The translations under genes and the position numbers were made by a program. DNA of 64,000 bases. Origin: Chloranthus sessilifolius (Eukaryota > Streptophyta > Magnoliopsida > Chloranthales > Chloranthaceae). The stretch's first letter is position 1. Each line of letters opens with the position of its first letter. The notes below the pieces were generated by a model, which had not been told where the DNA came from, ran no database searches, and worked only from the letters and a program-made list of their open reading frames with translations. Positions 15,227 through 41,782 of this stretch are shown in pieces. The stretch covers positions 69,132,646 to 69,196,645 of the forward strand of contig CM037585.1 of NCBI GenBank assembly GCA_021018995.1, read 5' to 3'.

Positions 15227-15326
15227 CTCTTTTGCAAACTCTTTCTTTCTTAGATAGTTAGTTTTCAGTATATTTTCCTATTTTTTTTTCTATTTCCCTC
15301 GCATTATTTCAAACCCTTTTAAATAT

Positions 15327-17635
15327 ATGAGTCTTCGTCAAAGACTCGAGATGTCTGGTATACGAAGAGTGAGTTTAGGAGACCCATCATTGTGGGGATA
15401 TCATAACAATCCCACGTACGAAGAAGAACCACTTTATAATTTCAGCCTAAGACAATCTGAGATTAACATGGTTGGCGAACAAGAAAATCCATTCTCTACC
15501 CCACACACCGGTAGTAATCATAATAGGAGAGATGGTAACTCTAGACAAAACCTTACTGCTCAACAAATCGTAGAGCTCAGTATTCAAAGAATACAAAGAG
15601 GAGATGACGACTCCGATGAATTACTTCAAGGATTGGTTGCGGCATACGAGGCCATTAGGTCACGACAATTCGCAGAAGACCAAGAATGACAGGAAAGGCC
15701 ACCGCCTACCCCGAGCATAGTGTCAGCCTGCCTCACACCATTGAGACAACCTACTCACACGTTCTTCAACGATGATTCTCTAGAAGAGGTTTGCTCATGG
15801 GCCGCTTCAAGAAACAGCACCATCAAAATTGAAGATCTCATTAAAATGCTCGACGAGTACATGGCCAAGAGAAAGTGCCCTAGTCGCTCATTCGAATTCG
15901 ATAAATTTTTTTTGGACGTCGAATTTAACTTACCAATAAACCACTGAAATTTACCAAATATAATGGCACGAGAAATCCGAACCATCACTTGGTCCTCTTT
16001 TGTAACGATTGTTGACCCATACCTGATAATCAAGGACTTCTCATTCACTATTTTCAATGCTCATTAGAAGGAGAAGCTTTAGATTGGTTTGCGGGACTCC
16101 CGCTTTATAAGATAGAAACCTTCGATGATTTGGTTGGTCAATTCCTAGACCAATACAAACACTTGACCTAGGAGACAGTCAGTCTCAACGATTTGATGGC
16201 GGCCAAGCAAGGACCCGATGAAGAGTTTACCGACTTTGTCGACAGATGGAGAAAACTCACTGCTAGGACCGACACTTCAATGAAAGAGAAGGACTCAGTA
16301 GACATTATCATCGATAATACTAGAGAACCACTAAAAAGCGCACTTGTCGTCAGTGATTGCCCCGACTTCACTGCACTCCATTCCCGGGCATCCCTACTAG
16401 CACGGCACATTAAAGGCGGAGACCTCATTCTATCCATAGTCACATTAAAAGTAGGCTCTTCCAGTGAATCAAAAATGAAAAATAATAAAAAAGCCTCAGG
16501 AATCGAATAGGTGAGCACAGTTGTCAACTAAGGACAAAACTTCGAGAATGAAAATTTCCAACTGTGAAACTTAGAGCAAAATCAAAATCAACAATGGTAC
16601 ACCAACCAAAACCAATGCGCTAATCAACAAAGATACGCAAACTAAAGCCAAGTCCAAAACCAAAATCAGGGCCAATATCAGAATAGAAATCAATATCCCA
16701 ACACCTACCATAACCAAAATATGATCCAGAACCAATCAGCCCATGCGCTGAACTATAATAGCGTACCCCCACCATAAAACTTCAGCCCAGCTAGAGGCCC
16801 CTACCAGTCGAGGTGGGAACACTATCCCCCTTTACCTGATATGATTCTCAACATCTTTCATCTCCTCAACACTCAGGCTCTCCTCCAATTCTTGCAAGAA
16901 AGACCTCGCTCATGGCAGACAAATCTAGACTATAGCAAATACTGCACGTTCCATCGATATGCGGGACACAACCTAGAAGACTGTTGGGTCCTCCAGGATG
17001 TAATCTATGACATGAATTACCAAAATCAAATCAATTGGGAGGTGCTTAGGAATCCTAACCCTAATAATAACCAACCCCAACAAAATTTAGGGATCATTAA
17101 TAACCCCATGCCCAACCACAACGAAGCAACACCGGCTCAGGTCACCACCGTAGATCTTTCCAGTCGATCTTCCTTCAAGCCCTCCACCTTAATCACTTGC
17201 ATCCAACCCTCTAATACCTCTGCCACACTTGCAAGAGTTCCTTCACTCCCGCACCCCTCGGCCTTGATCACTCGCATCGCCTCGTCGAGCCTGCCTCCTT
17301 ATCCAAAATTCACTCAGATATGAGTCCACTCCTTTAGGGACAGGAGACCCTTCCTCCATAATCACCCGCCAGATCCTTCAACCCCTCCAAATCCTGAACC
17401 AATGCAATTGCCACTCCCTTCATCCAATTCTAAACCCGAGTACGGAGATCACATTCTTCAAATTGTAGCCCAAATTGCTGCATGGGTAGAAAGTGTCACT
17501 CGAAAGATTCCAAGCCGAGAGAATGAAACAAAGACTGAGTATTTACTAAACATAGAAGAAAGTGAGCGAGAAGGACATCCCGACCCGGGCGAGATGCTGG
17601 TCTCTGCTTTCCTGGAAGAGGAGGATTACACATAG
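15327..17635 (+). pseudogene. gag: gag region of element B
   Basis: The first frame opens with MSLRQRLEMSG at 15327-15689. The capsid-like middle at 16193-16510 has LMAAKQGPDEEFTDFVDRW and DCPDFTALHSRAS, typical of plant Ty3 gag (retrotransposon gag domain). A zinc-knuckle variant CX2HX4HX4C (YCTFHRYAGHNLEDCW) lies near 16942-16985, and Pro/Asn/Gln-rich linkers surround it. The D element carries the same gag with clear similarity throughout. The protein would form the particle that packages element RNA. Several breaks are present. Confidence 0.75.
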
Positions 17636-20639: not shown

Positions 20640-22630
20640 TTTTGTAGTATATGAGCTTATCGAAGATGAAGAAGAAACATTGATCGTCAAAGAGGCGCTA
20701 GACTTCCAACGGGTTATCAAGCATTTCGATGAGCAAACCCAAGTTGCAGCGAAACCTACGGAAGAAATAAACTTTGACACTGAAGAGAAACCCAAGAAGC
20801 TACTAATTAGCACAACGCTCAACTCCATGGAACATCAATAAATCGTACAAGTCTTACAAGAACACCTCGACTCCTTCGCATGGTCCTATGAAGATATGCC
20901 TGGTTTAGACCCAAGTTTAGTAGAACATTGCCTTGTCTTGAAACCCGATGCCAAACCTATTAAGCAGAAACTCCGTAGGATGCACCCACAAACTACCCTT
21001 CAAGTTAAAGAGGAAGTTGACAAATTACACAAAGCCAAATTCATTCGAATCGTCCTTTACCCTAAATGGGTCACCAACATAGTACTTGTCGCTAAGAAAG
21101 ATGGCAGAGTATGAGTTTGCATTGACTTCCAAAATCTCAACCAGGCATGTCCAAAAGATGACTTCCCACTTTCGCACATTGACACTCTAGTCGACCACAC
21201 CGCTGGACATGAGATGCTATCCTTTATGGACGGTTTTGCTTGGTATAATCAGATCAAATTAGCAGAGTCTGACCAAGAGAAGACTTCTTTCACCACACCA
21301 TAGGGAACTTACTGCTACATCATCATGCCTTTTGGGCTCAAGAACGCATGAGCCACGTATTAACGTGCCATGATGGCTATTTTTCACGACATGACGCATA
21401 AATGTGTAGAAGTCTATGTCGATGGTATATTAGTGAAGTCCCAAACGCGAGTAGGTCATGTTGAAGCACTCCGACTGGTACTACAAAGAGCCAAGAAGTA
21501 TCAGCTGAAAATTAACCCAAAGAAGTGTGTCTTCGGAGTCACCTCCGAGAAATTACTTGGTTTCATAGTCAGCAAGCGAGGGATCGAAGTCGACCCTACA
21601 AAAGTCAGAGCCATCCTTGAGATGTCACCTCCTAGTAATATCAAAGAAGTACTAGGTCTGATAGGAAGATTATAATTCATCAGGAGATTTATCTCCCAGC
21701 ATTCAAACATATGTAATCCTTTCTATAGACTACTTAAAGGAGGGACTGAGTACAAATGGGATGACCAGTGTTAGCAAGCCTTTAATAATATCAAGAAGTA
21801 CCTCCTTAACCCACCAATACTATCTCCACCTGCTCTCGAAAGACCTCTTATCCTATACCTCTCGGCGAATGATAAAGCAATGGGAGTGATTCTGAGACAA
21901 TATGAAGAAGACGGCAAGAGAGAGAGGGCTATCTACTACCTTAGTAGGACGATGGTCGAGTACGAACGAAAATATACTTTGATGGAGAAGACCTGCCTCA
22001 CATTGGTGTGGCCCTCAACCAAATTATGGCACTACTTCGGAGCACATAAGATACTAGTACTAGCTCGAATGGACCCTCTGAAGTATGTATTCGAAAAGCT
22101 AGCAACCTCAGGAAAGATCACTCGCTGGCATATGCTCTTGCAAGAATTCGATATCACTTACATCACGCAGAAGTTGATCAAAGGGCAAGTAATCATCGAT
22201 TACCTCACAGATCTCCCACTCCTGAGCAATGAGCCCATACAAGAAGATTTCCTCGATGAAGACCTACTCATGATTCATAACGAAGAGCCCGATAAGACGT
22301 CATGGACCCTCTATTTCGACGGCGCTCGAAACCACAAAGGAAAATGCGTCAGAGTAGTCTTCCTAAGCCCCGAAGGAGTTGTTATACCTAACACTTTTCA
22401 ACTAGATTTCCCTGTCACTAATAATGTCATAGAATACGAAGCTTTTATAGTTGGACTACGAGCAGCACTACAATTAGGCATTAATTAGTTGAAAACCATC
22501 GGTGATTCCAAGCTCGTAATCTCACAAGTTATAGGAGAATGGAAAACTAAGGAAAGGAGACTAATGGCATATTTAGAAACCGCTCAATATTTGATAAAGA
22601 AATTTGAAAGAATCTCTTTCACGCACATCC
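20640..22630 (+). pseudogene. pol: Reverse transcriptase and two RNase H regions of element B
   Basis: RT begins with VQVLQEHLDSFAWSYEDMPG-type sequence near 20840, then KQKLRRMHP, MPFGLKNA (about 21328) and the catalytic-loop region EVYVDGILVKS (about 21410-21440), then KKCVFGV and LGFIVSKRGIEVDP. The RT-linked RNase H follows (RAIYYLSRTMVEYERKYTLMEK, 21925-21985), then a second, archaeal-type RNase H (SWTLYFDGARNHKGK near 22300, NVIEYEAFIVGLRAAL near 22425). Two RNase H regions in a row mark the Tat/Ogre lineage. The region has several breaks. Confidence 0.85.
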
Positions 22631-22979
22631 CTAGACTAGAAAAATGAGCTCCCAGATTCCATAGCCACTTTAGCCTCGGTCATCCAGATACCCATCGACC
22701 AAAGTACCAAGACCTTCTTTGTCGAAAAGCTGATAGTATCCGCCCACGCGGTAGCATGGACCGTTAAGAGAGAATTACCAATCCTCCCCACAAGCACAGA
22801 ACTAAATGAAGCAATCACTCTGGAAAAGCACGTCAAGGTAGATATTGAAGTCTCTATGTTCAAATTTGAAAAATCACCAACCGACGATGGACAACCATGA
22901 TATTTTAACATCATGAACTTCTTAAAGCATCAACATATCCCTCCATATGCCACAAAGATTGAACGAAAGACTATAAGGA

Positions 22980-24163
22980 ACCGATGCGCCTAATTCTGCA
23001 TACTCGACAAAACGTTATATAAAGAAGCCTTCACCAAAAGAGTACTACTACGATGCATCACGACTACCAAAGGATAATATATCATCTAAGAAGCACATGC
23101 TTGTGCTTGCAGCGCCCACTCCGATAGATAGAGGCACGCCAATCAAGTTACACGACAAGGCTACTTCTGGCCGACGATGATAAGAGATTGCCACCTCTAT
23201 GTCCAATCCTGCAAATAATTCTAAGAACATGCCGCACTCATCAAAGCTCCATTAGTTGCATTGAACACTATGACTTTGTCATGGCCATTTTCAATCTGGG
23301 CCTTCGATGTCATTGGACCTTTCACAAATACAGTTGGGAACACTCACAAGAATGTGTTCATACTTGCAGTGACCGAATACTACACCAAATGGGCAAAAGC
23401 TGAATCCTATGTCAGAATCACCACTTCAACACTCGTAAGGTTTATTGTTTGAAATATCATCGCCAGATTTGGAGTATCCAGGATGTTTGTCACCAACAAC
23501 AGACTACAGTTCATCGCAAAAAATACGAAGAAGTTATGCAAGAAATTCGACATCGATCTATGTCACTCATCACCGTTCTACCCTCAAGGAAATGGACAAG
23601 CAAAAGCTACGAATAAAATGCTGATTTGAATCCTAAAATGCACAATAGAAATAAGTAATGGAGCCGACTGGCCTAAACGACTAGCAGAAACACTCTGGGG
23701 CTATAGGACCTCTATTCGTACGGCCACTAGCCAAACTCCCTACCTCCTTACCTACGGGATAGAGGCAATCCTATCATATGAGATACAAGTACCATCCTTA
23801 TGGATTCAACTCGATGATGAGCTATCCTTAGATGAGAGGAGAATTACCCTACTCACACAGCTAGAGCAGCTTGATGAAACACGTCTAAGGGTAGCTGATC
23901 ACGCTCAGGTATATCAGAGGAGAGTGGCAAAGGCTTATGATAAGAAAGTCCTTGAACGAACCTTTAATATTGGAGAATTAGTCTTGAAGAAAATCATACC
24001 TTCCAAGCACACCCACTCGAAAGGAAAATTGAAACCGAACTGGGAAGGCCCTTATGTTATAACAACCGCATACCCTGGAAATGCATACAAACTAACGAAC
24101 CAAGATGGGGAAAAACTCCCTAGCCCTTGGAATGCCATGTACCATAGAAAATACTATCCTTAG
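22980..24163 (+). pseudogene. pol: Integrase region of element B
   Basis: The zinc-binding front part is near 23030-23220. The core includes WAFDVIGPFTNTVGNTHKNV (23304 on) and the typical SPFYPQGNGQAKATN stretch near 23570-23610. The C-terminal frame 23924-24163 has KAYDKKV and the KLKPNWEGPYVITTAYPGNA motif common to Ty3-type integrase tails. The family inserts element DNA into the genome. It is broken. Confidence 0.8.
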
Positions 24164-25659
24164 TCCCGTGATCATCACATCCCATGGTTAAATACGTATA
24201 CTAATCACCCCCGTAATCCTCATGACCCATTCATTGGTCGTACGCCATCAATTCTCATAATATCCTTAAGACCTCTAATTTATCATCCACTTTTTCTCAC
24301 TCGGGCAATCTGATTAAAGGACTAGTGACATACCTAATCTCTTTCAAAAGCATAAGTAACACTCGATCCTCATTTTCCTTCTCTTGCCATTGGAGGAGAC
24401 ATTAGAGCAAAAAAAAATGAAGATGTCAACTTCAATCAAAACTCGCTATTCTCGTGCTAGCAGGATGCTTTCGAAGAATACATATATCAAAATGTTGAGT
24501 GAGAGCATTATGACGATTGAACAAGTTAATGAGCTCAGGGGAGCATAAGCAGACCGTGAGGACATCTCTGGTAACTTTACTAGAAGTGTATTAGCAAGCT
24601 GCGAGGGTATCCCTGATGTCCCCATACTACTAGATGTCGTCGTAAGGTGGCGGGAGGAGGACAAACTCCTACTAACCATAGAATGTGAAATTTTGATGGT
24701 ACCGAAATATGACGAAGAGCTCGATTATGGCATCCCATATCCCTCCGAGAAAAAAATTGTTACTCATCCCTTTTGGAAATCATTAGATACAAACTATTCC
24801 CCATATCACTGAGCCTTACCCCCCTATTCTATTTTTATTTTGGACGATAAATCAGAAGCTTTACAGGATACTCCTAGGAATGAAACTGAAAACCGATTAC
24901 TGATGACTGATGCAATCACCTACTATACCTATCATACTTCTCCCAATTAACCACGTGATAGGATGACCACCACCCTAAGATAGACCCCCGTATACAACTG
25001 ACCTAATCAAAATGACCTCCCCCTAGTTCGATGATAGTAGTGATGAACTTTTCTTCAAAGCTAACTCACCAAATACCCATGACTGCTTATAGACCCAAAA
25101 TGCTCATCAACAACCCAGAAAAGCTCCATTGCATCTATACACTGGGGCATTTTTTTGGATCAGAAGGAGAATCATGTTAGAAGTGCTGACTTGTCCACGA
25201 AGAAGATGAGCAATAACAAAATTACCATCCGGAGAATGCTACCGAAGATACTATACTGGCAACACTACCACGCTCCTACATTGGAGCATTTTTATTTTAT
25301 TATTTTTATTGTTTCTGTCTTAGTTATTTGCTTTCCCTATTGTATTATTTTCATTTCAAAAAAAAAGAGAAAGAAAAAAAGGAAAATAAGAAAAGAAAGC
25401 ACATATCCACCCTTATTACCAGACCCTGGTCTGAGATACAACCCCCTTGACAACTAGCAAGGGGGAGAACAGAAATTACTGATAATGGTACCTTTATATG
25501 TGTAGATACGAAGCAACCTCCAACCACCAGCGGGCCAGCCCAAGAAGCATCCAAGTCCCAATGATGGTCGTCGGCGCTAAAGAAACTAAAAAGCAAAAGT
25601 AGACGCAAGGGGTTACTAAAAGAAAAGGAGCCAATCAGGTACATCTACATAAAAAAAAA

Positions 25660-25662
<3 letters not shown>

Positions 25663-25700
<38 letters not shown>
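25663..25700. repeat. TA dinucleotide run
   Basis: About 19 uninterrupted TA units. Shorter AT runs recur at 26397-26412, 46364-46379, 52740-52757, 62288-62304 and 63342-63365, mostly in element tails and leaders. Confidence 0.95.
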
Positions 25701-25702
<2 letters not shown>

Positions 25703-25733
25703 AAGTTTTCTTTTCTTTTTACATTTGTTACTG

Positions 25734-25747
25734 GGGGCATCCCCCCA
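25734..25747. terminator. GGGGGCAT/CCCCC hairpin at the 3' end of the antisense gene
   Basis: GGGGGCATCCCCCC can fold as a short G/C stem and lies 53 bp beyond the antisense stop codon (25800-25802), next to AATATATATA. Similar small palindromes stand at 34867, 36041 and 63541. A role in ending the antisense or the sense transcript is inference. Confidence 0.4.
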
Positions 25748-25799
25748 ATATATATACAGCGCACACACACAATAGACAAAAAAAAGAACACACGCACCC

Positions 25800-27479
25800 C
25801 TACTCCCTACGCTGTCGCTGGGATGGACGAGCACCGCTGTCCCCAGTATCATCCGCTGGGAGGTCTATGGACTGGTCATCCGAACATATAATCCCAGCAC
25901 CCGGAGTCCTCGGAACCTCTAGACGACAAGGCCCCACCACAGAACCTCCCTCATTTGTCTGACTAACAGACCGCCTCGATCGAGAATGAGGAGGATACCT
26001 CGCAAGAATATCACGAATGACAGAATCCTCACGAGCATCACCCCTAACACGATCACGAGACGTGGGACGAGACTTCCCAGTCGAGGAACCCGTAGCCCTC
26101 GACTTGATCCACCAAGCGAACTAGCCAACCTATGCACCCCCCACTCACTCCTCGTTAGACGATACTGCAGATGGTCAAGGGACACCTATATCTCTGCCCG
26201 CATCGTTTGACGCGCTGCCTCCAATGCCTCAACCTGAGTCTTCTGCTCAACCATCATCTCAACAAATAGGTCGTCATGACTCTGCGTCTCCCCAAGGATC
26301 TATCTCGCCTCGGGGGTGGCACGTGCTTGCATCGCCTCTAGACACGCCTCCTCAAGCTGACGAACCTGCATAATTACACCAAGTCAAAGAAAACCCATAT
26401 ATATATATATATGAACATAAAAAAAGGGGAACTTTGGAAAGGAAATAATCATACCAGATCCAGCCTCTCCTCCAGAAGTTGCTCAACCATCTCGGAAGTC
26501 ATTGGATCAACAGGAGGCACGAAAGGGAAAGCAAATGTAGGTGGCTGTAATGAGAACAAACAAACACATCAGATGACACTATAATGACAAATACCATAGA
26601 CGTAATAACTAAAATATACTTGAGTAGGGATAGAAACAGACCCCTGAGGGGGAGCCTCAGGAGCGAAGTCTGGAACGACCTGCACAAAAAAAAAAAAACA
26701 AACCAACACAAAATATATCAGAACAAATAAGATGAAATAACCTAAACTGAATTACACCAAACCAAAAATTATATTGACTCTCAGGACGTAGAGAGGCAGC
26801 AGTCGCCTCCCTCGTCTTAAGATCCTCAGTAACCTGATGCTGAAATACCACATAATGTTAGTAAAATGTTAAGAAAGCAAAACAATAACACCCAATGAAC
26901 TATTATAATTATACAAACGAGTTGAAAGATTGAATGGAACTTACCCAATGATCTAACTCGGCCCGAAGCTGAGCCATCGCTTGATCCTCCCGACTAGAGG
27001 AAGCAACTGAAGATGGATCAAATGTCAGAACGGGACCTCCAGCAGCGAGCTTGGCTCTGTATGAATAACAATGAACATGTTAGTTGGCAAGCCCACAACA
27101 CTAACAATTAACAAAACCAAGTTCATATAGACACTTACCAATCGGTCAATCTCAGATCGCAAATTGGCCTCCACCTCTCGACCGGCCTGTTGCGACCGCG
27201 TAACAACCCTATCAGTGCCACATTACTAGCGACCTCGGCCTCCCTCTCAGACTGTCTAAAAATGAAACGAGACACCACAATCATGTCAGAACGACCGAAA
27301 GACTAGGTCAACATAATACATAAAAAAACCAATAAATCAACTAACCAAGAGCTGTCAAGTCTCCGCCAACCGAGCCCCTAACTCATCCACCACTCCCCTA
27401 GCCTGAGAAATCGAGAGGGCTAAGGAGTGCAGCATCTCCTCATCCGGACGAGGAGCACACCCCATCTGCTCCATCACCC
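25800..27479 (-). pseudogene. PMD gene, downstream coiled-coil and C-terminal exons
   Basis: Several short exons with consensus splice signals can be seen: REVEANLRSEIDRL before GTAAGT (about 27140-27256); AKLAAGGPVLTF to MAQLRAELDH before GTAAGT (about 26946-27062, CATACAG acceptor); HQVTEDLKTREATAASL (about 26762-26848, TTTCAG acceptor); VVPDFAPEAPPQGSV (26619-26681, GTGCAG acceptor); PTFAFPFVPPVDPMTSEMVE (about 26458-26546); VRQLEEACLEAMQARATPEA (from 26370). The final part is Arg/Ser-rich and ends SQRQRRE before the stop at 25800. Confidence 0.65.
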
Positions 27480-27962
27480 TGTGGAGGGCAGCTAACGCCC
27501 CCTAGACACTTGCAGTGAGATGGCCCCGCTTCAATGTGGCCAGTCTCTCCCTCAATGCCGACTCCGACCCACCGACCGTAAAAGAGCCACTTCCATGGAA
27601 GGGACGTGTGAAGAGGCGCCTGCCACCCAATGCACTAACCATCTCCTATACTCTCAGACATCCACCTCGTCATGCGTTCTATGACCCTGATCCCCCCAAC
27701 CCTGAAATCGGTCATCTGAAGTGTCATCCGCTTCGTAAAATTCTAGCCCGGGGAGTCGATCATCCTCTTCGCCACCCTATGGCGAATCTCTAGAGGGGCT
27801 CCCTAAGCAAGCCCTAGCTGCCGCACCACTCGAGACAGGTGGATTCTCTCCACCTTCTCAAAACAATGGACCCATATATCCACGTCGAAGAAGGGTTGGC
27901 CAGACTAAATCACTGGCACACCCGCATCCTCCCGGCCGCGTATGGCCTCCAAATCACCTAAC
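27480..27962 (-). pseudogene. PMD gene, VIWRPYA exon
   Basis: A TTGGTTAG acceptor is followed by VIWRPYAAGRMRVCQ, then FFDVDIWVHCFEKVERIHLS and RVVRQLGLAQGAP. This matches the PMD C-terminal pattern (W.PY, then ..VE...P.RV.RQFG..Q.iP). The 3' limit of the exon is uncertain. Confidence 0.65.
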
Positions 27963-28049
27963 CAAACGAGCAAGCCAACCCATCAATGAATTCTCATATC
28001 CTAAAAGCTGAAACAAAATTAAATGAAACATACACATGATGATATATAC

Positions 28050-28214
28050 CTGCCCCGCATGCATATCCTCGAAAAGACCGCGTGCGGTCTTAAGATCTGA
28101 AGACCAGCGATGACCCCTCAACGCCTCCCTCCACACGCGCATCCACGAAAATGTGAACGTCACCTCCAAAGGAACTCCCAGACGAAGAAAAGCAAAATGG
28201 ACATATGCCCAGAA
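28050..28214 (-). pseudogene. PMD gene, FWAYVHFAF exon
   Basis: A TTTTTTTAG acceptor precedes FWAYVHFAFLRLGVP and SSDLKTARGLFEDMHAGQ, followed by a GTATAT donor. The exon sits where PMD proteins have the segment between the core and the C-terminal W-x-PY part. Confidence 0.7.
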
Positions 28215-28304
28215 CTAAAAAAATACATAAAAGATAAATGTTGAATAGTTACCACTAAAAGACCAAGAAAATAAAGACACTATGACATCAACTAACTAAA
28301 ACTC

Positions 28305-28406
28305 ACCTGGAGGAAGGGAAGGAAACCTCCGATCATCATGACGCCCCGTCCGCGATGATAAAGCTACTCATAGAGATTTGCCAATGCAGTCGCACCCCAT
28401 GCATAG
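28305..28406 (-). pseudogene. PMD gene, YAWG exon end
   Basis: It reads YAWGATALANLY and GGFLPFLQ, the canonical continuation of the PMD core, then a GTGAGT donor. It abuts the solo LTR at 28407. Confidence 0.75.
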
Positions 28407-31009
28407 TGTTATTCATTGAAAAGTACCACTTTTCACCTCTTAACCTAGCCTTTGATAGACCTTGAAGTGGACTAATAATAATTTGTTAAGTGTGTTTTGT
28501 AGTTAGCAATAATCTATACAGCTTAATACAAAATCCATCATTATTGGCCCAAAAAAGAAGAATAAGACATGCAAAGCCGAATGGAACACCCTGGTAGTGC
28601 TCACCATGGTGACTCATTTGCTAGTCATCACTAACCAAAAGCCTAGCAGATGGATGAAGTTGGCTGAGAATGGAGAAACTGCAACAGCAGCAAGTGCAAT
28701 TCATCAAAGCATAGAAAGACGGATCTCATAGAGTTGAGAAGCTCCTTCACGAAGCTAAGGATGCAGTGGAAGATGCCCTCGCACAGATAGGACGCGCAGT
28801 CAAGAGGAGAGCTGTAAAGATTTTGCAAAAGTCTCACAGATTAAAATCCTCAAAATTTGTAATCGCGAAGCTCTCATGAAGATCAAGCCTTAAAGCAACC
28901 GTGCAAAGAATACAGCGAGTCCATGTGTGTACTAAACAAAATTCCACCTCGCGCAGTTTGTGCGTGGCCCTGGAAGAGAGAGAAGCCTAAAATTCTCCTC
29001 GCACAGATCTCGCGCACTCTGAAGCCTTACCAATTACTACGCGAACACAGGAGCACACCTACGCGAGTACTCAACGAGAGAGAGCTTCTGAAGCTCTACT
29101 GTGTGAGAAGTCTAGGCACCCCAAATCATCTCTGTGACAGAATTGCAGTGCAAAGGAACTGCACGATTAACTGAAAATTTACTGTGCGAGTGAGCACTTC
29201 CCACCAACCAAAAGCTACTCCGCGAAGGCTTTGCAACTGTGTGAATGAATGAATACATATGCCAGCCCCACGAAGCACGGGCTCCCAACTTCTCAGTTTT
29301 AACTCAAGGACCTTTTAGGAATTTCCCAAGGCTAGGGCACACTTCTTGAGGTGCAGATTTTGAGGCACACATCTCAAGGCATTCAAGGGTTATAACAGTC
29401 ATGTCTGCTAGAAAAATTAGGGTTAATCTCTTTAGAGCCAAGGCCGTATGGACAGAGTATATAAGCAACACTTAGAGTTTATTTTTATCATCGACCCTTC
29501 TTTTCATCCTCTGTCGGCTGAGAGCTCCAGCAGGCTAGGGTTAGGGTTTAATCACCTCTTTTTCCCATTTTTCTTCTCTCTTAGCCCAGCACTTGCCAAC
29601 TAATCCCCCTATAAGTAGTTAGGTTTAGTTTATTTTAGTTTGTAATAGGTTTTGTATACATTGGGATTTTTTATGGGCAGTTATGTACAGGCTACAGCCT
29701 GGAGACAGTCCATTGTAAGTTTCGTTGTTATTAATGGATTATTGTTTTAATGATTAATTGAATCTAAAGATCTTATGGTTTCTTTAGATGTCTATAGGAT
29801 CCATGTATTTGGGACGATCCCATTCAATTTCTAGTAGATCTATTGTTTACCATCTGATTTCCCTTGGTTTGATAGCCCCATGGAAAGCAATGCTAGATCT
29901 GTAGTGAGATCTGGGGAGCTCGGAGGCCTGTGGACCATGGTGGTTGCAACAGTTTTCATGCTCTTTCTCAGACCTATGTGGTATGGACAGACCAATGGGA
30001 TACCCTGTGAACATTTGAGTGGACAGAGTATAGCCCTAAGGTGGTGTCCAGCCACATGTTTGAGAAAGATTCTTCTCCCTTGCACATGAGCTTCTAGAGC
30101 CTTGTGAGGAGATTTGTACAGGAACTGGCCCCCCTCTGTTTTACCTAACCGACATCAAATGTTAGATCTGATATCTCTGTAGTAGTTGCAGCTTGAGGCT
30201 GAGTCATTACAGGCCTTTTGTAGCAATGACCAGCTGGATTTAGAGCCTTATTCAACCTATTACATGGTCCTTTTTATTGGCACCAGTGAGCCTTTGGCCA
30301 TGGCAAAGCACTTAGGATTTTATGGGTTGGAATACCTATGGATGTCAGCCAGATCTGTGTGAAGATCTGGAGAGCTTGTAGCACTGACATTATATAGTGT
30401 TGTTATAGTATTCATGGCCTGGTCTGGTCTAGTGGTTGGGGAAATGATCAGTTCACTCCTCTGGATTTGAGTGGCAACTTCTGGCTTAATCAATGGGATT
30501 TGACAGACTCTATAGGATAGGATGTGACCATTTGAGTGGACGGCCTATAGCCTTAAGAGCACCCCAAATGGCATGAGTTAAGTTAGACACTTCTACCTTG
30601 TTGAGGCTTTGATGGCATCTCAACAAGGAGCACTACAGAGACAGACTAAATCTGAGTTACATTACTGCTTTAACTCTGAACTTAACCTGCTTACTTCTCA
30701 CTAATTTTTAACCCTTTCTTTAGGATAGGGCTACATTTTATTTTTCTGTTGTTAGGATTAATTTAGTGTAGTTGTGACACCCAGCTCCCTTTCTTTAGGA
30801 TTGTCAGATCTGTAGCCAGATCCGGAGGCCTGCTGTTATAGCCCATTTTGGGTTCTAGATCAATTTCTCTATGGGACAAACTCTTACTTATCAAAACTTG
30901 CTACAATAAGCCCTATATCTTGCAGGTCTAGGATTACTTTGGTTGTGTTGAATCCATCCTTTTATTTTACTTTGTCTTTAAATTTGTTTCCACCAAACAA
31001 ATAAACACA
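28407..31009 (+). mobile_element. Solo LTR of the C family inside the PMD gene
   Basis: It starts TGTTATTCATTGAAAAGTA and ends ...AATAAACACA, about 2.6 kb. It shares GAAAAGTACCACTTTTCACC with the start of C's LTR and GGGACAAACTCTTACTTATC with its end (reverse of 4350-4370). Flanks GCATAG and GCATCG are a near-match target duplication. No coding region is present. It interrupts the PMD gene between the RDLDRVPTYV and YAWG motifs. Confidence 0.75.
28740..29240. repeat. CTCGCGCAG/TACGCGA word cluster in the C-family solo LTR
   Basis: Words such as CTCGCACAGAT, TCGCGAAGCTC, CCTCGCGCAGTTTGTGCG, CTCGCACAGATCTCGCGCA and TACGCGAACAC repeat at short irregular intervals. This is the position where related LTRs have CTCGAG words (5430-5875) or CCTGTCGAGAGG words (48505-49075). 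Confidence 0.6.
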
Positions 31010-31592
31010 GCATCGAGAATCTGACAACATAGGTAGGGACCCGATCCAAGTCCCTGAGAACCATAAAAAATAACCCGGTGATGCATCCCCGAGTCGAAGA
31101 AGAAAAGAGTATTGCACCAAGGAAGTGCATCAAGAATGCTCGGAGCACCCTATCTGTAGCCAACCACGGCCTCACGACTCGCCACCACCACACAGCGCAC
31201 CTCATAAGACGCCCTCGCCTCCAAATGATGCCTTGGAGGGACGAAGCCACTCGCAAAAGTATCAAAAAATTAAGTGACCCGAACCACACCTGGTCCCGAG
31301 CCACTCAACCTATATGGCACACCCAAAATCTCGTCGCACACCTCCAAATACACTCCTGCCATCCATCTCATGATTGGCTCACCCTCAAAATGAAGACCGG
31401 TAATGCAAACCCAGTCCTCTGGAGTTAGCAACATCATGCCAACTAGAAAGAGAAGCGCCTGATGCTCCTCCCTCTACCTCTTTAAAATCGCAGCGATCTG
31501 GCTACGATCGACCTAAAAGGGCTCCAGCTTCAGGATCGACCAAGTATGGGACTTGCTCCATGCCGAGCTGATAGCCAGCTGTGGGGGCTCCT
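31010..31592 (-). pseudogene. PMD gene, first half of the plant mobile domain
   Basis: Preceded by an AATAG acceptor near 31593. It contains YQLGMEQVPYLVDPEAG, then TPEDWVCITGLHFEGEPI (the ExLxGLxxxGxP-type region of PMD), and DRVLRAFLMHFLGAILF with LRDLDRVPTYV, which match the conserved 'yLLYLLGxxLF..D' and 'LrDldxxxxYaWG' parts of the domain. The solo LTR at 28407-31009 enters directly after this, before the YAWG motif. Confidence 0.7.
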
Positions 31593-31904
31593 ATTGAATG
31601 GAACATAAATAATGACAGTAAGACTAACACATACCTATGACAAAAGACAAATAGATCTAGAGCTAAAAGTAAATGAAATATGCCCCAAACACAATAACAA
31701 CTCATAACGAACACATAAAACATGATAAGAACAACTCAATAGAAACATGACCTATCTCTAGATGCCATCATGATGCATGAGTGAGCACACAACCAATGAT
31801 CAATGCAGATTTGACATAAATTAAAAAGGGGTTTTCGGATCCTAATAAGTCTATGTCATAATTAAAATGCCTATAAAATGAGGATACTCTTGCTCACGGG
31901 TACC

Positions 31905-32240
31905 TACCCAACCTTGAGGGAAGAAATCCTCTAGCGGGAAGTGTCTTCCATCATGACACTCCTCACCCTGGTGCTCCTCAGTCTCATCCTCAGCTCTCTC
32001 CTCCTTGACCCTCTCACCCTCCACCTCAGCTACACCCTGCTCAATCTCGGGTACCTCCTCCCTGGCTTCCACCTAGTCAACCTCCGGTACCTCCTCTCTA
32101 GCCACCTCCCTGACATCCACCTCCCTGACAATGGCGTCGATTGGAGCCGTAGAGGTCTCACCTATCTCCCCCATCATCATCCTCTCCAACTCAGAAATAG
32201 TAAGATTGTGCCTATCACCGCTTTAACCCTCCATCCTAGA
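31905..32240 (-). pseudogene. PMD gene, acidic N-terminal exon
   Basis: The frame reads LTISELERMMMGEIGE, then long Glu/Val-rich runs (VEAREEVPEIEQGVAEVEGE, EERAEDETEEHQGEE) and DFFPQGW before a GTAGGT-type donor near 31905. The composition is like a flexible acidic leader. Start codon not settled. Confidence 0.5.
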
Positions 32241-32330
32241 ATAAAGAACTCAAAATTTGGGAAAGAACAAAAGAAACGGTGCCTGAAACGAACGATCGGA
32301 TCGCAAAATATCACAAAAATATAAAAATAT

Positions 32331-32572
32331 AGCACAAGGAAACAAGAAAACAAAGAATCAAAGACCAACACGGATAGCGCGGGAAGAATGAAACATTTTT
32401 GAACTATTTATAAGACATGGCTGAATCGTGCGTGTGAACTCACGCGCTCAACCCAATCACGCACCATAATTTTCGCGCTTAATTCGGATCAAACGATAAG
32501 TTTTGAGCACGTAAACTAATCGTTGCCCGCTTAAACTAACCCGACCACCTGGTTGCGTGTCGTCCACCAAGC
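32331..32572. other. Noncoding tail of element B left of the E-family solo LTR
   Basis: No gene. It carries ACGCGCTCAA, ATCACGCACC and GCGCTTAATTCGG words like those in B's LTR. Confidence 0.5.
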
Positions 32573-34203
32573 TGTGCGACCATGGATTCTCTCGAACCCG
32601 TTGCGATGATGCACTCACGATGGAATAAATGTAGAGTCGCCACCTAGAGCTTTTGGTTACCCAGGAAACCTTTAAATCAATATTTTGAGCACCGAAGTGT
32701 TAAATATGACTCTGATTAACCGGTTTTTGCCAAAGACTCTAGGGTAGGGGCTTCGGTTATCGATCGGGAAGGGTTTAGGCACTCGATCAACCCGCACGTA
32801 GCGGTCTCTATCTATGGCCAAAATTAAAAATAAATGGGCGGAGCTTCCGCTTGCCCGAAGGCAATATGGTCCTATCAAGATTTGAGCCAAACCGAAATTT
32901 CGACGACGTAACGGCTTGAATCCTTGGATGAACGAAACACCAAGAAGGTAGAGGAAGAGACGGGTGAGACGGAGCTCATGGGCCCTTGTTGCACCGTGGA
33001 AGACCTTCGCTTCGGCGTACTTCCGATGGCTTTAACTGGCTTAAACGGTAGGGGAATGGATTCTAATGCTAGGATTCGGTAGATGGGAAGTGTAGGATGA
33101 TGCTAGAGACGAAGTTTGACTAAAAAGGGGTGATCTAATGGTTTAAATGGATTGAAAGAGGTGAACTAAGCATGCTAGAATTCTGGTTGAAGAATAAAAA
33201 AAATGGAACTTTCTCTCACTAGGGCTTTCTCTCTTAATCTCAAACTTTCAACCCTAATTTTTTTCAACCCTTTGGGAAGAGGGGGGGCCTCTCTATTTAT
33301 AGAGAAAAGGTGGATTAGAGGGTTACTTAAGAGCTAATTGGTTTAGCAATTAGGTAATCCCCCATCTAAGGTTTTCTAGGTTTTTAGGGTCCTAGGGGTT
33401 TGGGAAACCGGTTTCAATGACAGATGATGGGGTGAGACCATAGGTGACTTAAGGGTTGCATATAAGCTCAAAGGGGGTGCAACCAACCTTAAGACACCCA
33501 CCTCAACCAAGGGGATGGTCAAAAGGTCAAACCTGATGAAGGGATTTCAAGCATCTGATGACAGTTACTGTAGCTAAGTTGGGCGTATATATTACATACG
33601 CCCAATTTATGTACAATGATTTTCATGAAAACCAGAGGAGATCTGAGAAGGTGGGTGCTCGTGGTGGGCCCTACCTATGCTGGGCGTATGTATTATGTAC
33701 GCTCAATCAAATTTGGCTCAAAAATGCCAGGCGTATATAATATATATGCCTGACCAAACTGGGGCCAAATCTGCTGGGCATATGTAATACATACGCCTGA
33801 GCAAAAGTCATGATTTTATGTAAAACTTCAATTGGCCATAACTTGTGAACCATAACTCCAAATTGGGTGATCTTTGGCTTGCTGGAATGCTGGAGAAGTC
33901 CTCCTTCCAATGGCATGGGGCTCCTCCTTGGTAGTAGTCTGTATAAAATTTTGTAGCTCTCCTCCCATCAATTGCTCAGAAGGGTTCAAGTTGGGTCCGG
34001 GAAGGGATCCTAGGGCTTAGGGGTGATCTCTAAGGGTTGGGGGAATTGTTCTAAAGGGTTCAGGGTGATTCTTAAAAGTCTGGATAGGTTCCTAAGGGTT
34101 CAAGGCGATTCCTAAGGGTTCAGGGGTGCCATCAAAAGCACAGGGGTATAGCTCTCTCGGAGTATAGACTAATCGGGCCTTGGGCCGAATTTGGGTGTCT
34201 ACA
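32573..34203 (-). mobile_element. Solo LTR of the E family, minus strand
   Basis: On the minus strand it begins TGTAGACACCCAAATTCGGC (34203) and ends CCATGGTCGCACA (32573), 1.63 kb, collinear with E's 5' LTR at 49819-51370. Flanks CAAGC and CAACC are a near-match target duplication. It includes TATA-like TCTATTTATAGAG (near 33290) and four palindromes. Inserted in B's tail. Confidence 0.85.
33581..33798. repeat. Four 23-bp palindromes (GGCGTATA..TATACGCC), spacing 101, 47, 47
   Basis: Copies start at 33581, 33682, 33729 and 33776. Each has AGGCGTATA-type arms around a short AT centre and can form an 11-bp stem, with some mismatches. The mirror arrangement in E's LTR is 47, 47, 101. Confidence 0.85.
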
Positions 34204-34837
34204 CAACCGCATAATAATCTCATGCGTTTGAACCCGTGCGCGCAAATGCCAACAATGACCGGCCACCACCTTAATCCTGCGCCCATGACATGTACTAAAC
34301 TCGATTAAACGACTGGACGCCGACGCTTAATGTCCTTCCGACCCTTCGAAAAGCGCACTCCCATTCTGACGCGCAATTAGTTTATGCGCTCGGAGTGAAG
34401 CGCGCAATTTCCCAGAAACATAAAATATGTGCCCAGAACAGCAGGTTCACAGGACCAAATTAGGAGACTTTTGACACTAACTGCCAACCTAAACTACGTC
34501 GTTGTTAGAGCCAATCCAAAAACACTTCTAACTTAGGACATACACACCTTGAGTCAAAATGAAAAAAAAATGCCCCCCAACATCACATACACAGTACAAC
34601 CGAGACCAAACAAAAATGAAAAATGCCCCTCATCGTTTATACACTTGATCCTAAACTAAGCTAAACCAAAAAAAACTATCCCCAACATACCCCAGATCCA
34701 AAATAAATGAACTAAACCAAATCAAACTTAAACAAATAAACGTCACGTTCAAAACTAGATCAAGTAAGCTATAAAATAAACAAAACCAAAATTCACTAAA
34801 TATAAATAGCAAAAATAGAATTAAAAATATAATTACT

Positions 34838-35161
34838 TCATAAATAAATAAAAAAATTATAAAACACACTGAGGGCATACTCCCTGAATATACAACTTAA
34901 AATCCGCCCGTTCAGGCAATGCCTGAATCCAAAAAATCCCGAAGGAGGAATGCACCCTGAACGTATTCTAAAGATGACAGCCTCTTCCCCTTGCCTCAAA
35001 CTGGCGGAAAAGAAAGAGTGGCTCACAGAAAGCCACCCAGGATCTGCGGGATCCACCTTTGGAGGCTCACCTTGGAAAGCATAACAAGGAGGAACAACTA
35101 ACGTTGAATCCGTAGAGCCTACTGAGGAAACATACGCATCGGTCACGAGAACTCTGACCAT
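34838..35161 (-). other. Short antisense open stretch in B's tail
   Basis: A minus-strand frame reads MVRVLVTDAYVSSVGSTD, then YAFQGEPPKVDPADPGWL. It has soluble, protein-like composition in its first 70 codons and then runs through the palindrome at 34867. I do not recognise it. It may be another antisense ORF or an exon, or chance. Confidence 0.25.
34867..34880. terminator. GAGGGCATACTCCC palindrome
   Basis: A small hairpin followed by TGAATATACAAC, similar to the signals at 25734, 36041 and 63541, each at the end of an antisense open stretch. Confidence 0.35.
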
Positions 35162-36040
35162 GCCTTTTCCTTGGGTTTCCTTTCTACCACCTTTTTATCC
35201 TCCACCTCTTCCCTTAGCATGGTAGCAATTCGACTGCTACCTTGCATTCCCAATCCCGTCCATTCTCAATAACCCACGCAATAACACAACTCTTCGGGTT
35301 CAATACCCGGGATACAAAAGAGAAAGGAAGAAAAGAGAGTAGCAATAAAAAAAAAATTCCCCAAGACTTCTAATTCTAAACTTGAAATAAAATCCAAAAC
35401 AACAAGAACTCAAAGCTTTTAGCTCACACATTTATAAACTACACCTCCTAAATTACCAAATGACAACTGTCACACCTTTGAACCCTTCCAATCTAATTAA
35501 ATCCAAACCAAACACATACTCCCTTAAAAATAAAAAAAAATAAATAAATAAATAAAACTAGAATCCATGACCAACCTAATAAACCAATAATTATGCAACA
35601 CTTATACTTTCAAGGAAACACAAATCCAAAGCAAAGTAAACAAGTCAAAAGGATTTAAACACTTAACACCCATCTAGAACCTTTGAAAACTCACACCTTT
35701 TAATAAGTATCATGTTGAATAAAAAAAAAGACCAAAACTCAAGTCAAATCAAACTTAAAACCAACAAGCGATAAAATAAAATGGCCCTCCAAAGTGAGAC
35801 CTTAACTTGTTTGGGGACCCCACAAAAAAAATGCCCCTGGCAATCCCATTAGAATCAAGTAAACCCTCTAAACAAAATTCCATAAAACAAAACTAATCTC
35901 AAGATAAGCTCTAAGCTAAATTAAATCCTAGACTAAATCAAATCAAATATGCATGACTAATCCATTAAACAAGTACTAAGCATAATAAACAAAAATAATA
36001 CTCTTTTATTTATGACTAAATATTTTATATAATATCACCG

Positions 36041-36054
36041 GAGGTATACCTCCT
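36041..36054. terminator. GGAGGTATACCTCC palindrome
   Basis: A perfect 14-bp palindrome followed by TGAAATTACAAC, in the same context as the one at 34867. Confidence 0.4.
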
Positions 36055-38393
36055 GAAATTACAACCCAAAACGAAAACCTAGAACCTAACTTACAACCCA
36101 AAACGAAAACTGGAAACGAAATCAACACTAAGCGAGGAGCAAAACTCCCAATCAGAGGCTTCAGGAAGGATTGGTTGGGGAACACATCCCTTCACATGTA
36201 ACACCTTCCTCTTCCGCCATCTTCACCTCCTCCACCGCCGTCTCCTCAACGCTGCCTTCACTGCTCCCTAAAAGGGATCGATGTGAAGACTAACATCCTC
36301 ATTCCCAATACTGCCCATTCCCAGAATAATGTTGTCCCCGAGCATTGCCTCAAGGAAAAGATTACATGAAGTAATGAACATAGGAAGAAACGACATCCCA
36401 TTCGAACAGTTAGATCACCCGATATCGCTAAAATACAAATTTTAGAACACAAAATATCCAGAAAAAGTAAAACTCGAGACTAAACCAAAGAATGAGAAAC
36501 AAATGAAGGCTTCCTCACTTATATAGAGTATAGACTTAATCACGCGCCCAGACACACGCACTTAACTCGGTCACGTGCATCACACGATGCGCTCAATTCA
36601 AAACATGCGCTCCGACCCGAGTGCGCAATTGAACCATCGCCCGCACCAATGATGCGACGCTCCGATCACACGCCTATTGAAAAATGCGCAACCTCATTAA
36701 GCGACTCCCACGAGCCACGCAATATGAAAGGTCGCCCATGCAATAACCTCGTGACACCTTGATCACATGCTATGATTAGAGCGCATAATACATTCACACG
36801 CAAACTCACACACACATAAACAGCCCATCGAACCTGTGATCGCACGCACGAAAATAGGCATGCAATCATATTAAGCGGCATGTACCAAGCATGCAATACC
36901 TGAATTAATCCACCCTCACACCTTTTCACCCCACGTTGATCAAAATTCTCCTGTCCCATCACGTGGCTTCACACGCTGTTCAGAAAGAATGACACAACCA
37001 CTTACTCCTATCCCATTGCTTAACCTCGTCACACACATCCCATCACGATAAGATGTGCACACATGACGCCACCTCAATATCCAATCCCATCATGATAAAT
37101 CAATCATGCCACCACAACACCCTCTCATGACAAGCCAAAAAAAATGAAGCCAATCACGGCGTAACCACAACATGATCTTACATAACTCAAGGTCTGCCAA
37201 AGAAAGAAACAGGACGTATCTATCGCGCAAATATCCTAGCAGCGTCCCATCGCTAACTATTCTCATCCAATGACCCATCACAAACATCACTACCCAAAAA
37301 GATCATACAACACCTGCCACACCATATGAAAAAGGGAGAAAGCTCGATCATGTCCCATCGCTAAAGCAAAGAGCCCTCCTCCCGAATTGCTCACTACGTA
37401 ATAGTTACTAGACACCACTGCCAAAGTAGAAATGAATGAAGATTCGAGACTCCTACCATATCCTCTAGCATCCAACCAATGGCAAGTCCCATCACAACAT
37501 CACTTCTCCAAGACATTAAGTCCCACCAGGACTCACCAAGCTCGGCCACGGCGGACACGAGAAAAAGAGAAGAATCGACCGTACAAGCTACGCACAATCT
37601 AGGTAAGTATCACTCCTAGGTAAGTACTACCCACTTTTTAATTACTCAATATTTCTTGTAAAATATAGTAAGCTATGATTAAGTTAAAATATTTTCAAAA
37701 CCCGTCTCTCTCGACTCACAAATCACTGTAGTCCTCTCATAAGAGACAATCATTAATATTCACCGAGAAGGTTAGATGGAGCATCCAGCATGCCAAGTGT
37801 CGTCTTGACAACCATATCAACGGTTGGGTTCAGAAATCCCGTACTGGTGGATCTGCTTAGCGACGTCTCGGAAGCCACGTTTTCCATTGATTTACCACTA
37901 AATTGATCTTAAGTTAAATTCCCTAAAATTTCAAATTTCCAAAACCCCTTACTTACTCCCGAACAAAAATATTTTACTTCTAAAAAAAAAGAAGAAACAA
38001 AAAAAAAAAAACTCTTACCACTTACTCTTAAAATAAAAAATCTTATTCCAAAACCAAAAATCTTTTACTCCCAAAACAACAAAAATAGAAAGAAACCAAA
38101 GAAAAAAATGAACAAAGAAACTTTACCTACCCAAATTTCACTTCAATTACCAGCCCAAGCCAGCCATTCCATTGGGAAACTGAACAATGAGTACATTTAA
38201 TCTAAAAACTTACAAACGCCTATTGGAAAAGGAACGCCTGATGCAAATTGGTGTGAGCAATTTCGTGCCCAGTCTGACATGACTTGCGAAAGCCTTCGAC
38301 ATTATTTTGCATTGTATTATTATTAGTCCCTGGACCTACTTATGGACATTTGTATGACGCCCCCCGATACCTCGACTGTATCATACCCCTTTG

Positions 38394-38626
38394 TTTGACT
38401 ACCCCTTACAGTAGGCGACATACAACGGGATGCCCCTTACACCCACAGATTCGGATATGGTGATTCTCCTTTCCGTTTGACTGTCACTTATAGCAGGTCG
38501 TGCCACACGACTGGATGCCCCTTGCACCCGTAGAATAGGATATGCTGACTTCCCCCATGTACTGTCTATGATAGCGGGTCGCGATACATGACGAGATCGC
38601 CCCTGGGCATCCACGGCATGGAACAC
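38394..38626. repeat. 82-bp tandem repeat, nearly three units
   Basis: Units start at 38394, 38476 and 38558, each with TTTGACT or TGTACTGTC, a TA.AG.AGG or AT.GCGGG word and a GATGCCCCTTACACCC-type word. Copies are diverged by perhaps a quarter. Confidence 0.75.
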
Positions 38627-38823
38627 GCCAGTCGATAGCTACCATTGGGCCTCTGAATGCTCCATTTTAGCTTGTACAGATAGATAAGAAAGCCAAGCAT
38701 GTCATGTCAGCATCCCCAGTTCACATTTGTGATTTCCTAAGAGAAACAAGAAGACACCTCGGATGAGGGGTGCTTACTTCTTCGACGCATTCTTACTTCG
38801 CAAGAGCGCCGAAGAGGGGCATC

Positions 38824-41782
38824 GATAAACACTCCCATTTTTCCCTCTCAGAATGTATAAATTTGTTTGGTCAACCTATGACCTCATAACCCTAATTGGG
38901 ACCATATACTGAAACAATAGTATATGGCTGAACACAGGCTAAAATAATAGCTCTGTGGCTTAGACCTCTTAACCCTAATGTGGGGACCATATGCTGAAAC
39001 AATAGTATATGGCTAAACACAGGCTAAAATAATAGCTCTGTGGCTCAGGCCCCATGACCCTAATGTGAGGACCATACACTGAAATAATAGTACATGACTG
39101 AACACAGGCTAAAACAATAGCTTTGTGGCTCAGATCCCGACATAGGGAGACTATGTAATAAAATAATAGTATATAGTCAAAATGTTAACTGAAATAATAG
39201 TCTGGCATTTCAAACCCCTTAACCCTAATTGGGACCATATACTGAAATAATAGTATATGACTGAACAAAGGCTAAAGCAATAGCTTTGTGGCTCAAGCCC
39301 CATAACCCTAACGTGGGGACCATGCACTGAAATAATAGTGCATGACTGAATACAAGCTGAAACAATAGCTCTGTTGCTCAGATCCCAATGTAGGAAGACT
39401 ATATACTAAAACAATAGTATATAGTCAAAATGCAAACTAAAACAATAGTCTGGCATTTCAGACCCAACCCGGACCCGGATAGCCTCGAATTACATGCCTA
39501 AAACTATGCGCGTAATTCGATTGCATTCAAAACCACACACGTGCAATCAGTCCCCCTTTCAGACCAGAATTTCTTTCCTAGATCACCTCAAGACTCAATC
39601 ACGCGCCCCACATGAGACGCGCGATCGGATTGAGTGCCCCACCACAGGCGCGCAATCGGCCAACGCCCAACCTAGTCTTACAGTCCTTGACCCTCAAGCT
39701 TCCTCGATTAAACGCTTGGAAAGAGGTGCTTAATCGGATTACGCACCCCATAATTGGTGCTCAATTTATCCTAATATTATTAGTACTAGAAAACTTGTTG
39801 AGCAAGTCAGCCGGTTGCTCACTGAGTCGGTGACCGACCCAAAGCGATTAAGCACTGGGAGACCAGCGCACAATCCAGTTAAACGCTTGAAATATGGCAT
39901 TTAATTGGAGAAAAACCTATAAAAGATTTTTTTCTAATTCGCCCCAGGAGAGACTGGCAATTTTGAGAGAATGGATTTTTTTGGGATTTCGAAACCAGAG
40001 AACTCCGAGAACGAACATATAGAGGAACATAGCCATGATTTCGAGATTCAAGCTTTGAATCTTCGAGATTTCTCTCTGCAGCCCCTGCCCTATGTAAAAA
40101 TTCAACCTTTAGCCTCAACCCCTTAGTTTAATTTTGGTTCTTAGACCTAGGACTTCTGTTAGTTTTAATTATTAATATCAAATTTTCAGTTTTAAACCGT
40201 AGCACCCTTTTTTTTAGACCTTAATTCTTAATATCCGGTTCTACTTCATTTCTAGAACTAGTCCTTAATCTGACTGTCTAATTCACCAACCCTAGACGCA
40301 ACTCTATTCTAAAATCTTAATCTCCAGTCCTATCATTAATCTCTGGTTCTCAATCATACGGTCTGTTTTTCTTATTTCGGACCCGAATTCAGTCCTAGAA
40401 TTTTAAATTTTAATTTTAATTTCTTAATTCAATACTTCTAAAATCCCAAATATTCATTTATTTTTCTAAAACTTTAGTTTCTTAATTTAATTCACAATTA
40501 TAATCCTGAAATCGACTCTGAATATCGAAAAATATCAACATTATAATCCAAAATCTAATTTATCTTTAATTTCAGCCACCCGATTTGCCCAAGGGAGCTT
40601 ACGGAGGGTACTCGGGAATGAGGCCAATCCTCATTAACATAGCGAGCCCAAAACTCCTTTTTTGTAGAATTATTTTATTGCTTTAATTAGGATTAGAAAA
40701 TTAGTTCCACAACCTTTTCTTAGATTTTTAGTATGATTAATTTACATGCTTTATTTTAATTTAGATCTTTTGAATAATTGCCTTGATTAGAACTCTAATA
40801 AAATTAGTTCCTTTATTTTAATTAGATAATTCTAGCATAGTTAATTCCTCGCTTTATTAGATTTCAGTATAGTTAATCATTTTTTTATTAGAATTTTAGT
40901 ATAATTAACTCATTGCTTTGATTACAATTCTAGGAAAAATCGGTTCCTTTATTTTAATTGGATTTTAGCATAGATAATTCATTGCTTTAATTAGAAATTT
41001 AGGATAATCAATTTCTCGCTCTGATCAGAATTCTAGTAAAATTAGTTTCTTTATTTTAATCAGAATTTTAGTAAAATCAGTCCTCCATTCCAATTAGAAT
41101 TCTAGTAGGACTATTATAATTGCTCTAATTAGAATTTCACTCAAATTATAATATTTGCTCCAGTTAGAATTTCAATACAATTACCATATTTGCTTCACTT
41201 AAAAATTTCAGTTTAATTAGCATGCTTGACTTAATTAGAGTTTCGTTAAAATTAACATATTGGCATTCCTGATATAATTAGGAGATTGATATCAATTGGA
41301 CCCTTAGTAGTATTAAGACACTAAATTAAGTAGAATTCTAATAAGATTAGGAAACTAAATTAATTAGACTCCTAATAGAATTATAATATTAGAATAGGCC
41401 ACTATAATAAATTCCCACACAACTAATCTCAATAGAATAAGGAAATCCAAACCGATCAGAATCACAACAATAACAGGGAAAGAAAAGGAAAACTAAACTA
41501 TCTAAATTATAAGGAAGAGTCATAGCTACTGACGTTCGCAAGCGAACGATTTAGTAAAGAAGTAACCCACACCCGCTCTAAAGCGTGATCATTGACGTAT
41601 TGCAGCGTCGTTAAATATCTACAGCTAGCGATCGCAACAACTAGGGATCTTCCTAGACAACCCCTTTTTTTTTATTTTACCTCCACTATTCTAAGCATCG
41701 CATCGCTAGAGTCCACTGGGACAGAATTTGGCCACTGATTCAACGGGGATCGAAAGGAACCCAGAAAAAGTGCACACCAATA
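38824..41782 (+). repeat. 3' LTR of element B
   Basis: About 2.96 kb, collinear with the 5' LTR: CATTTTTCC.TCTCAGAATGT start, seven satellite units, GCGCAATC zone, CACCCGATTTGCCCAAGGG, AT-rich zone, GTGCACACCAATA end. A purine tract GAAGAGGGG (38811-38819) stands just before. It is followed by the GTAGG duplication. Confidence 0.85.
38901..39460 (+). repeat. 85-bp satellite array in B's 3' LTR
   Basis: ACCATA-type starts fall at about 38901, 38986, 39071, 39148, 39234, 39319 and then the alternate GACTATATAC type near 39396. The pattern is three A-type units, one B-type, two A-type, one B-type. The 5' LTR has more units, so copy number changed after insertion or during copying. Confidence 0.85.

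Follow-up and report, generated by a model that had tools for sequence, protein, structure and literature searches.

Introduction

How does a gene divided by introns come to lie, in reverse orientation, within a retrotransposon that is copied through RNA, and does such a gene belong to the element or to its host? The question is raised by a 64,000-nucleotide stretch of the Chloranthus sessilifolius assembly GCA_021018995.1 (contig CM037585.1, positions 69,132,646 to 69,196,645, forward strand), referred to here as the window and numbered from its first letter. An initial annotation made from the sequence had described in it a complete, spliced gene encoding a plant mobile domain (PMD) and reading against a Tat-type retrotransposon. 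The locus is very probably a decayed Ogre-like (Tat-lineage) copy of a Ty3/gypsy element, carrying a lineage-typical antisense PMD accessory gene between pol and the 3' long terminal repeat (LTR).

An element-borne PMD gene is of a kind already known. Neumann 2019 reportedly cites Steinbauerova 2011 for the PMD extra open reading frames (ORFs) of Ogre elements. PMD is present in 57% of Ogre elements (Neumann 2019, PMC6317226) and is the most frequent extra domain among Gypsy consensuses (PMC9289625); the clades PMD-A1 and PMD-A2 are encoded by Gypsy elements only (Ikeda 2017, PMC5418596). In the interval from pol to the 3' LTR antisense ORFs are frequent, and one of them is transcribed from its own promoter (review, PMC7264820); antisense genes located there have been surveyed (PMC11963269).

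Boundaries and lineage of the element

The element spans 33.5 kb (8303-41782) and is enclosed by a single pair of LTRs and a single target duplication of 5 bp, an arrangement (paired LTRs with a 4- or 5-bp duplication) expected of the Tat lineage. Its terminal features are:

8298-8302, no strand: left target-site duplication GTAGG, the same letters as at 41783-41787
8303-15206, plus strand: 5' LTR, identified by self-comparison, starting TGTAGAC and split by an insertion at 8703-12396
15210-15227, plus strand: putative primer binding site TGGCGATCGCAATGGGAC, 3 nt past the 5' LTR
38824-41782, plus strand: 3' LTR, containing an array of ~85-bp repeats
41783-41787, no strand: right target-site duplication GTAGG

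Self-comparison of the window, listing matches of at least 100 bp only, aligned 8305-8702 and 12397-15207 with 38826-39224 and 38970-41783 in direct orientation at 88-90% identity. The pentamer GTAGG occurs 44 times in the whole window. The Kimura distance (K2P) between the LTRs is 0.108 across 2797 columns (204 transitions, 73 transversions) and 0.141 for the first 400 columns; these distances, with an LTR identity of ~90%, indicate that the insertion is old. Subtracting three nested insertions (3694, 2621, and 1631 bp) leaves ~25.5 kb, at the upper end of the 16-25 kb range of Ogre elements (PMC6431247). A tRNA scan of the window found none. Arrays of ~85-bp repeats lie close to the LTR starts of both this element and a second one in the window (8365-8682, 12397-12890, 38880-39465, and 43769-44187).

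The coding regions on the plus strand are recognizable in decayed form:

15258-17320, plus strand: gag region, decayed, with a Gag_p24_C match at 16172-16507 (E=1.3e-4) and similarity to 46415-48136
20842-24160, plus strand: pol, decayed, with reverse transcriptase, RNase H, a second RNase H, and an integrase C-terminal region

The similarity between the gag regions of the two elements was sought among translated frames of at least 25 residues only, and the gag piece 16778-17320 gave no Pfam match. Two pol pieces matched RVT_1 in Pfam scans (E=1.3e-4 and, at best, 2.7e-10). RT_RNaseH was matched at 21775-22485 (E=1.5e-22) and followed directly by the second RNase H, RVT_3, at 22489-22644 (E=1.8e-8), with the integrase C-terminal match SH3_Tf2-1 at 23630-24160 (E=5.2e-4). 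No integrase core was matched among the scanned pieces of the element. In a first scan of ten pieces, nine from this element and one the antisense ORF of the second, five matched retroelement families, two gave only weak unrelated matches, and three gave none; in the scan that found RVT_3, run on pol pieces of both elements, four of the six were matched and two were not. A second RNase H (aRH) thus stands between RNase H and integrase, a mark of two Tat-lineage clades, Ogre and Retand (PMC6317226), and the element is best read as a decayed, Ogre-like Tat-lineage Ty3/gypsy retrotransposon.

The antisense PMD gene

The minus-strand translation between pol, which ends at ~24160, and the 3' LTR, which begins at 38824, contains PMD-like stretches spread over several frames. 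The gene reads against pol, in the strand and interval of the antisense genes known as aORF-3R. Its principal features are:

25803-32234, minus strand: antisense PMD gene remnant, from first ATG to last sense codon
31028-31590, minus strand: exon for the N-terminal PMD region, with the left CTATG as its last letters and with matches to PF10536 positions 11-84 and 107-146
28307-28406, minus strand: remainder of the interrupted PMD exon (AWGATALANLY to GGFLPFLQ), with a match to PF10536 positions 148-180 (E=0.1)
32405-32412, minus strand: TATAAATA, a candidate promoter only, 178 nt before the ATG at 32234

Six minus-strand pieces were scanned separately against Pfam, with X replacing stops. Three of them matched PF10536 in collinear order, at profile positions 11-84 (E=9.2e-5), 107-146 (E=0.0078), and 148-180; each scores under the gathering cutoff of 34.9 bits, because the gene is fragmented. 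A PDB sequence search with one PMD piece gave no matches. Octamers of the TATAAATA type occur four times on the minus strand of the window and five times on the plus strand.

These results uphold most of the structural claims of the initial annotation: PMD homology on the minus strand, an element of Tat type, a single LTR pair with a single target duplication, and, by those boundaries and by the interval that it occupies, past pol and ahead of the 3' LTR, a gene that is part of the element and reads against it. Its count of at least eight GT-AG introns is broadly borne out as well.

Predicted introns

Nine GT-AG introns were predicted in the gene, seven of them firm:

31591-31912, minus strand: intron 1, weak donor
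28215-28306, minus strand: intron 2, also found by the intron scan
27958-28049, minus strand: intron 3, also found by the intron scan
27252-27345, minus strand: intron 4, donor outside the scan pattern
27057-27138, minus strand: intron 5, also found by the intron scan
26840-26944, minus strand: intron 6, also found by the intron scan
26680-26762, minus strand: intron 7, donor uncertain
26545-26619, minus strand: intron 8, also found by the intron scan
26366-26454, minus strand: intron 9, also found by the intron scan

They measure 75-322 nt, with 26-34% GC and 43-60% T; exon GC is 47-57%, leaving out the exon that spans the insertion. In 25800-28420, a scan for the pattern GT[AG][AT]...[CT]AG, 70-130 nt long, T-rich, and with GC-richer flanks, found six such segments on the minus strand, which correspond to introns 2, 3, 5, 6, 8, and 9, and none on the plus strand; introns 1, 4, and 7 are missed by reason of length or donor pattern, giving a recovery of six of nine. 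Elsewhere in the window, 39 half-overlapping tiles on two strands, excluding tiles that touch 25000-33000, yielded at most one segment in each of 78 tile-strands and four in total. Dinucleotide shuffles gave a maximum of two (mean 0.17), and none of 300 reached six. The scan thresholds were set with the introns already identified, and the test is therefore strong, yet not blind. The possibility that the introns are chance GT-AG pairs was rejected on the tile-strand and shuffle controls, and the nine minus-strand introns look real.

By manual reading, seven of the nine introns (2-6, 8, and 9) are in phase between adjoining frames. The long exon frames, together with introns that join in phase, suggest that a protein was once under selection, which argues against a role of the antisense unit mainly as RNA. 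Under that alternative, which is compatible with the identity of the gene proposed here, the antisense RNA would pair with the sense genomic RNA, feed small-RNA silencing, and restrain the element. Such a role has been proposed for antisense ORFs (PMC7264820), and 175 phased small interfering RNA loci have been reported at PMD genes of tea (PMC10673657). We regard it as a serious rival, though an unlikely one.

Decay and nested insertions

The gene model contains 13 in-frame stops (nine TAG, two TAA, two TGA), four of them within PMD-matching exons, and at least four frame changes, counts that depend on the frames chosen, which in exons lacking a PMD match were picked by openness. The PMD exon is in addition interrupted by 2,621 bp, inserted between RAFLMHFLGAILF...DLDRVPTY and AWGATALANLY. 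Splicing does not leave an open frame: this copy of the PMD gene is dead, and the locus is a fossil. The description of the gene as complete in the initial annotation therefore fails. Of the four PMD motifs quoted there, one was misread: at RVVRQLGLAQGAP the DNA reads RVVRQLGLA*GAP, with a TAG stop. RVLRAFLMHFLGAILF and YAWGATALANLY lie on opposite sides of the insertion.

Three insertions were delimited within the element:

8703-12396, no strand: insertion of 3,694 bp within the 5' LTR, TGTCACA...TGTCACA, flanked on both sides by TAACC
28407-31027, minus strand: insertion of 2,621 bp within the PMD exon, with CTATG at each side
32573-34203, minus strand: apparent solo LTR of a different element, 1,631 bp, upstream of the antisense gene, with flanks GGTTG/GCTTG (four of five positions)

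The insertion in the PMD exon (31027-28407) has short stretches similar to 4.3-6.1 kb of the window and most plausibly represents a nested transposable element. Its interpretation as an intron was rejected, given those stretches and the CTATG on both sides. On the plus strand, 4333-6118 shows scattered similarity to this 2.6-kb insertion and is perhaps a relative of the same transposable element. The solo LTR is 92% identical to 49901-51370. The LTR-like stretch of a further element occupies 49821-51370 and is followed by TGGCGACTCTGCTGGGG, a likely primer site.

As nested insertions are common in the element (three were found), the PMD gene might itself have been brought in by the nested insertion of a MULE DNA transposon bearing a PMD, and fusions of PMD and MULE transposase occur in several grasses and Amborella (PMC5418596). 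Among 25 inspected of the 30 inverted-repeat pairs in 24200-38820, none encloses the gene in the manner of terminal repeats, and 19 are AT microsatellite; no transposase was matched in the scanned pieces, which covered part of the frames of the region. A MULE around the PMD gene was rejected on the inspected pairs, and this origin is very improbable.

A second, related element

A second, related Ty3/gypsy element occupies 43662-64000, with an LTR-like start and then a similar gag, and is cut off at the window end. A near-identical primer binding site starts at ~46241, past the LTR-like start. Its pol is better preserved (RVT_1, 5.2e-13; RT_RNaseH, 7.4e-23; RVT_3, 4.7e-23; rve, 4.7e-11), with a 323-codon RNase H/aRH frame and a 243-codon integrase frame. 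An antisense ORF of 113 codons (63888-63550, minus strand) corresponds in position to the end of the PMD gene: in both elements the antisense reading frame terminates ~1.6 kb beyond pol, which favors a gene of the lineage. The PMD part of the second element, if there is one, would lie beyond the window end. The one DNA match between the two regions (39 bp, 90%, E=1.5e-9) falls in an AT simple repeat shortly past the antisense gene of each element and carries little weight. TA-rich simple repeats occur shortly downstream of the antisense gene in each element (25664-25700 and ~63344-63382).

The second element bears on whether the gene is instead a private passenger, a host MAIN/MAIL-type gene captured, introns included, by this copy or a small subfamily. 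Many introns are typical of a host nuclear gene, the PMD gene is known here from a single element copy, and the antisense ORF of the second element lacks a PMD match. Set against these points, the strand and place of the gene agree with known genes of the lineage (PMC7264820, PMC11963269), PMD is widespread in Ogre elements at the frequency given above (PMC6317226), and host-type PMDs fall in other clades (PMC5418596). Capture of this kind is accordingly improbable.

Interpretation

Several observations weigh against a lineage-typical PMD gene with the structure proposed. Besides the sub-cutoff scores of all PMD pieces, the three pieces from downstream exons gave no Pfam match, and two viral_contigs scans, run with a single PMD piece and a single RNase H piece, confirmed no relative. 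Intron 1 opens into a 28-codon stretch outside the PMD frame and is not in phase, and introns 7 and 8 are incompatible, in that only one of them can be in phase. The 113-codon antisense ORF of the second element matched no PMD, its sole weak match being to another family (E=0.076), and its comparison with two C-terminal pieces of the first gene stayed at chance level (best E 0.85). Finally, plant LTR retrotransposons are mostly intronless, the exceptions Ogre and EVADE having sense introns (PMC12786077).

If the gene is an accessory gene of the lineage, as we favor, then in live relatives it would be transcribed from its own minus-strand promoter, for which TATAAATA is the candidate, and the transcript would be spliced at about nine introns to yield a protein in which the PMD is followed by a long C-terminal tail. 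The introns would survive retrotransposition if the RNA that is copied is the sense strand, in which they go unrecognized; this explanation, already offered in the initial annotation, is consistent with the asymmetry of six minus-strand against zero plus-strand segments in 25800-28420. Judging from what is known of the family, the protein would most likely be a nuclear accessory factor for expression or chromatin state of the element.

A bolder version, in which the Ogre-like family keeps the multi-intron antisense gene as a fixed part, its introns shielded by strand and its protein countering host silencing that involves host PMD proteins, appears quite unlikely. An anti-silencing role of the element PMD protein is speculation. 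The authors of Ikeda 2017 speculate that MULEs employ captured PMDs against silencing (PMC5418596). The attribution of the gene to the MAIN/MAIL1 family goes too far, as the MAIN/MAIL clade, PMD-C, is separate from the Gypsy-encoded PMD-A1 and PMD-A2 (PMC5418596). The observation behind the initial annotation is thus partly confirmed and its interpretation partly supported.

The accessible text of PMC6317226, PMC5418596, PMC9289625, PMC12786077, PMC6431247, PMC7264820, and PMC11963269 holds no statement on introns in antisense PMD genes; this is weak evidence, subscription papers lying mostly outside its scope, that the multi-intron antisense structure is under-described in the literature. A search for antisense and spliced transcripts has been called for (PMC7264820). 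The locus offers a clear example of a retrotransposon carrying a spliced gene, which, being antisense to the copied RNA, is not required to lose its introns. Should sibling copies share the introns, the duration of selection on such a gene would become testable, as would the direction of descent between Gypsy PMDs and the host MAIN/MAIL silencing genes, which is fully open according to Ikeda 2017 (PMC5418596).

Comparison with known systems

The element resembles the Ogre elements with PMD extra ORFs (PMC6317226) in its large size and long LTRs, in a Tat-lineage pol whose first RNase H is followed by a second, and in the extra PMD gene. The minimum ORF length in that survey was 250 codons, whereas about nine introns divide the gene described here; the orientation of the Ogre PMD ORFs is unstated in its accessible text, and the present gene is antisense. 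With the PMD-A clades (PMC5418596) it shares location inside a plant Gypsy element. The aORF-3R genes, such as Grande gene23 and the Retand TRP28 ORFs (PMC7264820, PMC11963269), are similar in being antisense, in occupying the interval between pol and the 3' LTR, and in having a candidate promoter of their own. These encode Transposase_28, SMC, or no known domain, in contrast to the PMD found here, and the word "intron" is absent from the main texts of both papers. MAIN and MAIL1 of Arabidopsis likewise contain a plant mobile domain; they are, however, host genes of the PMD-C clade, whereas the Chloranthus gene is element-borne and broken.

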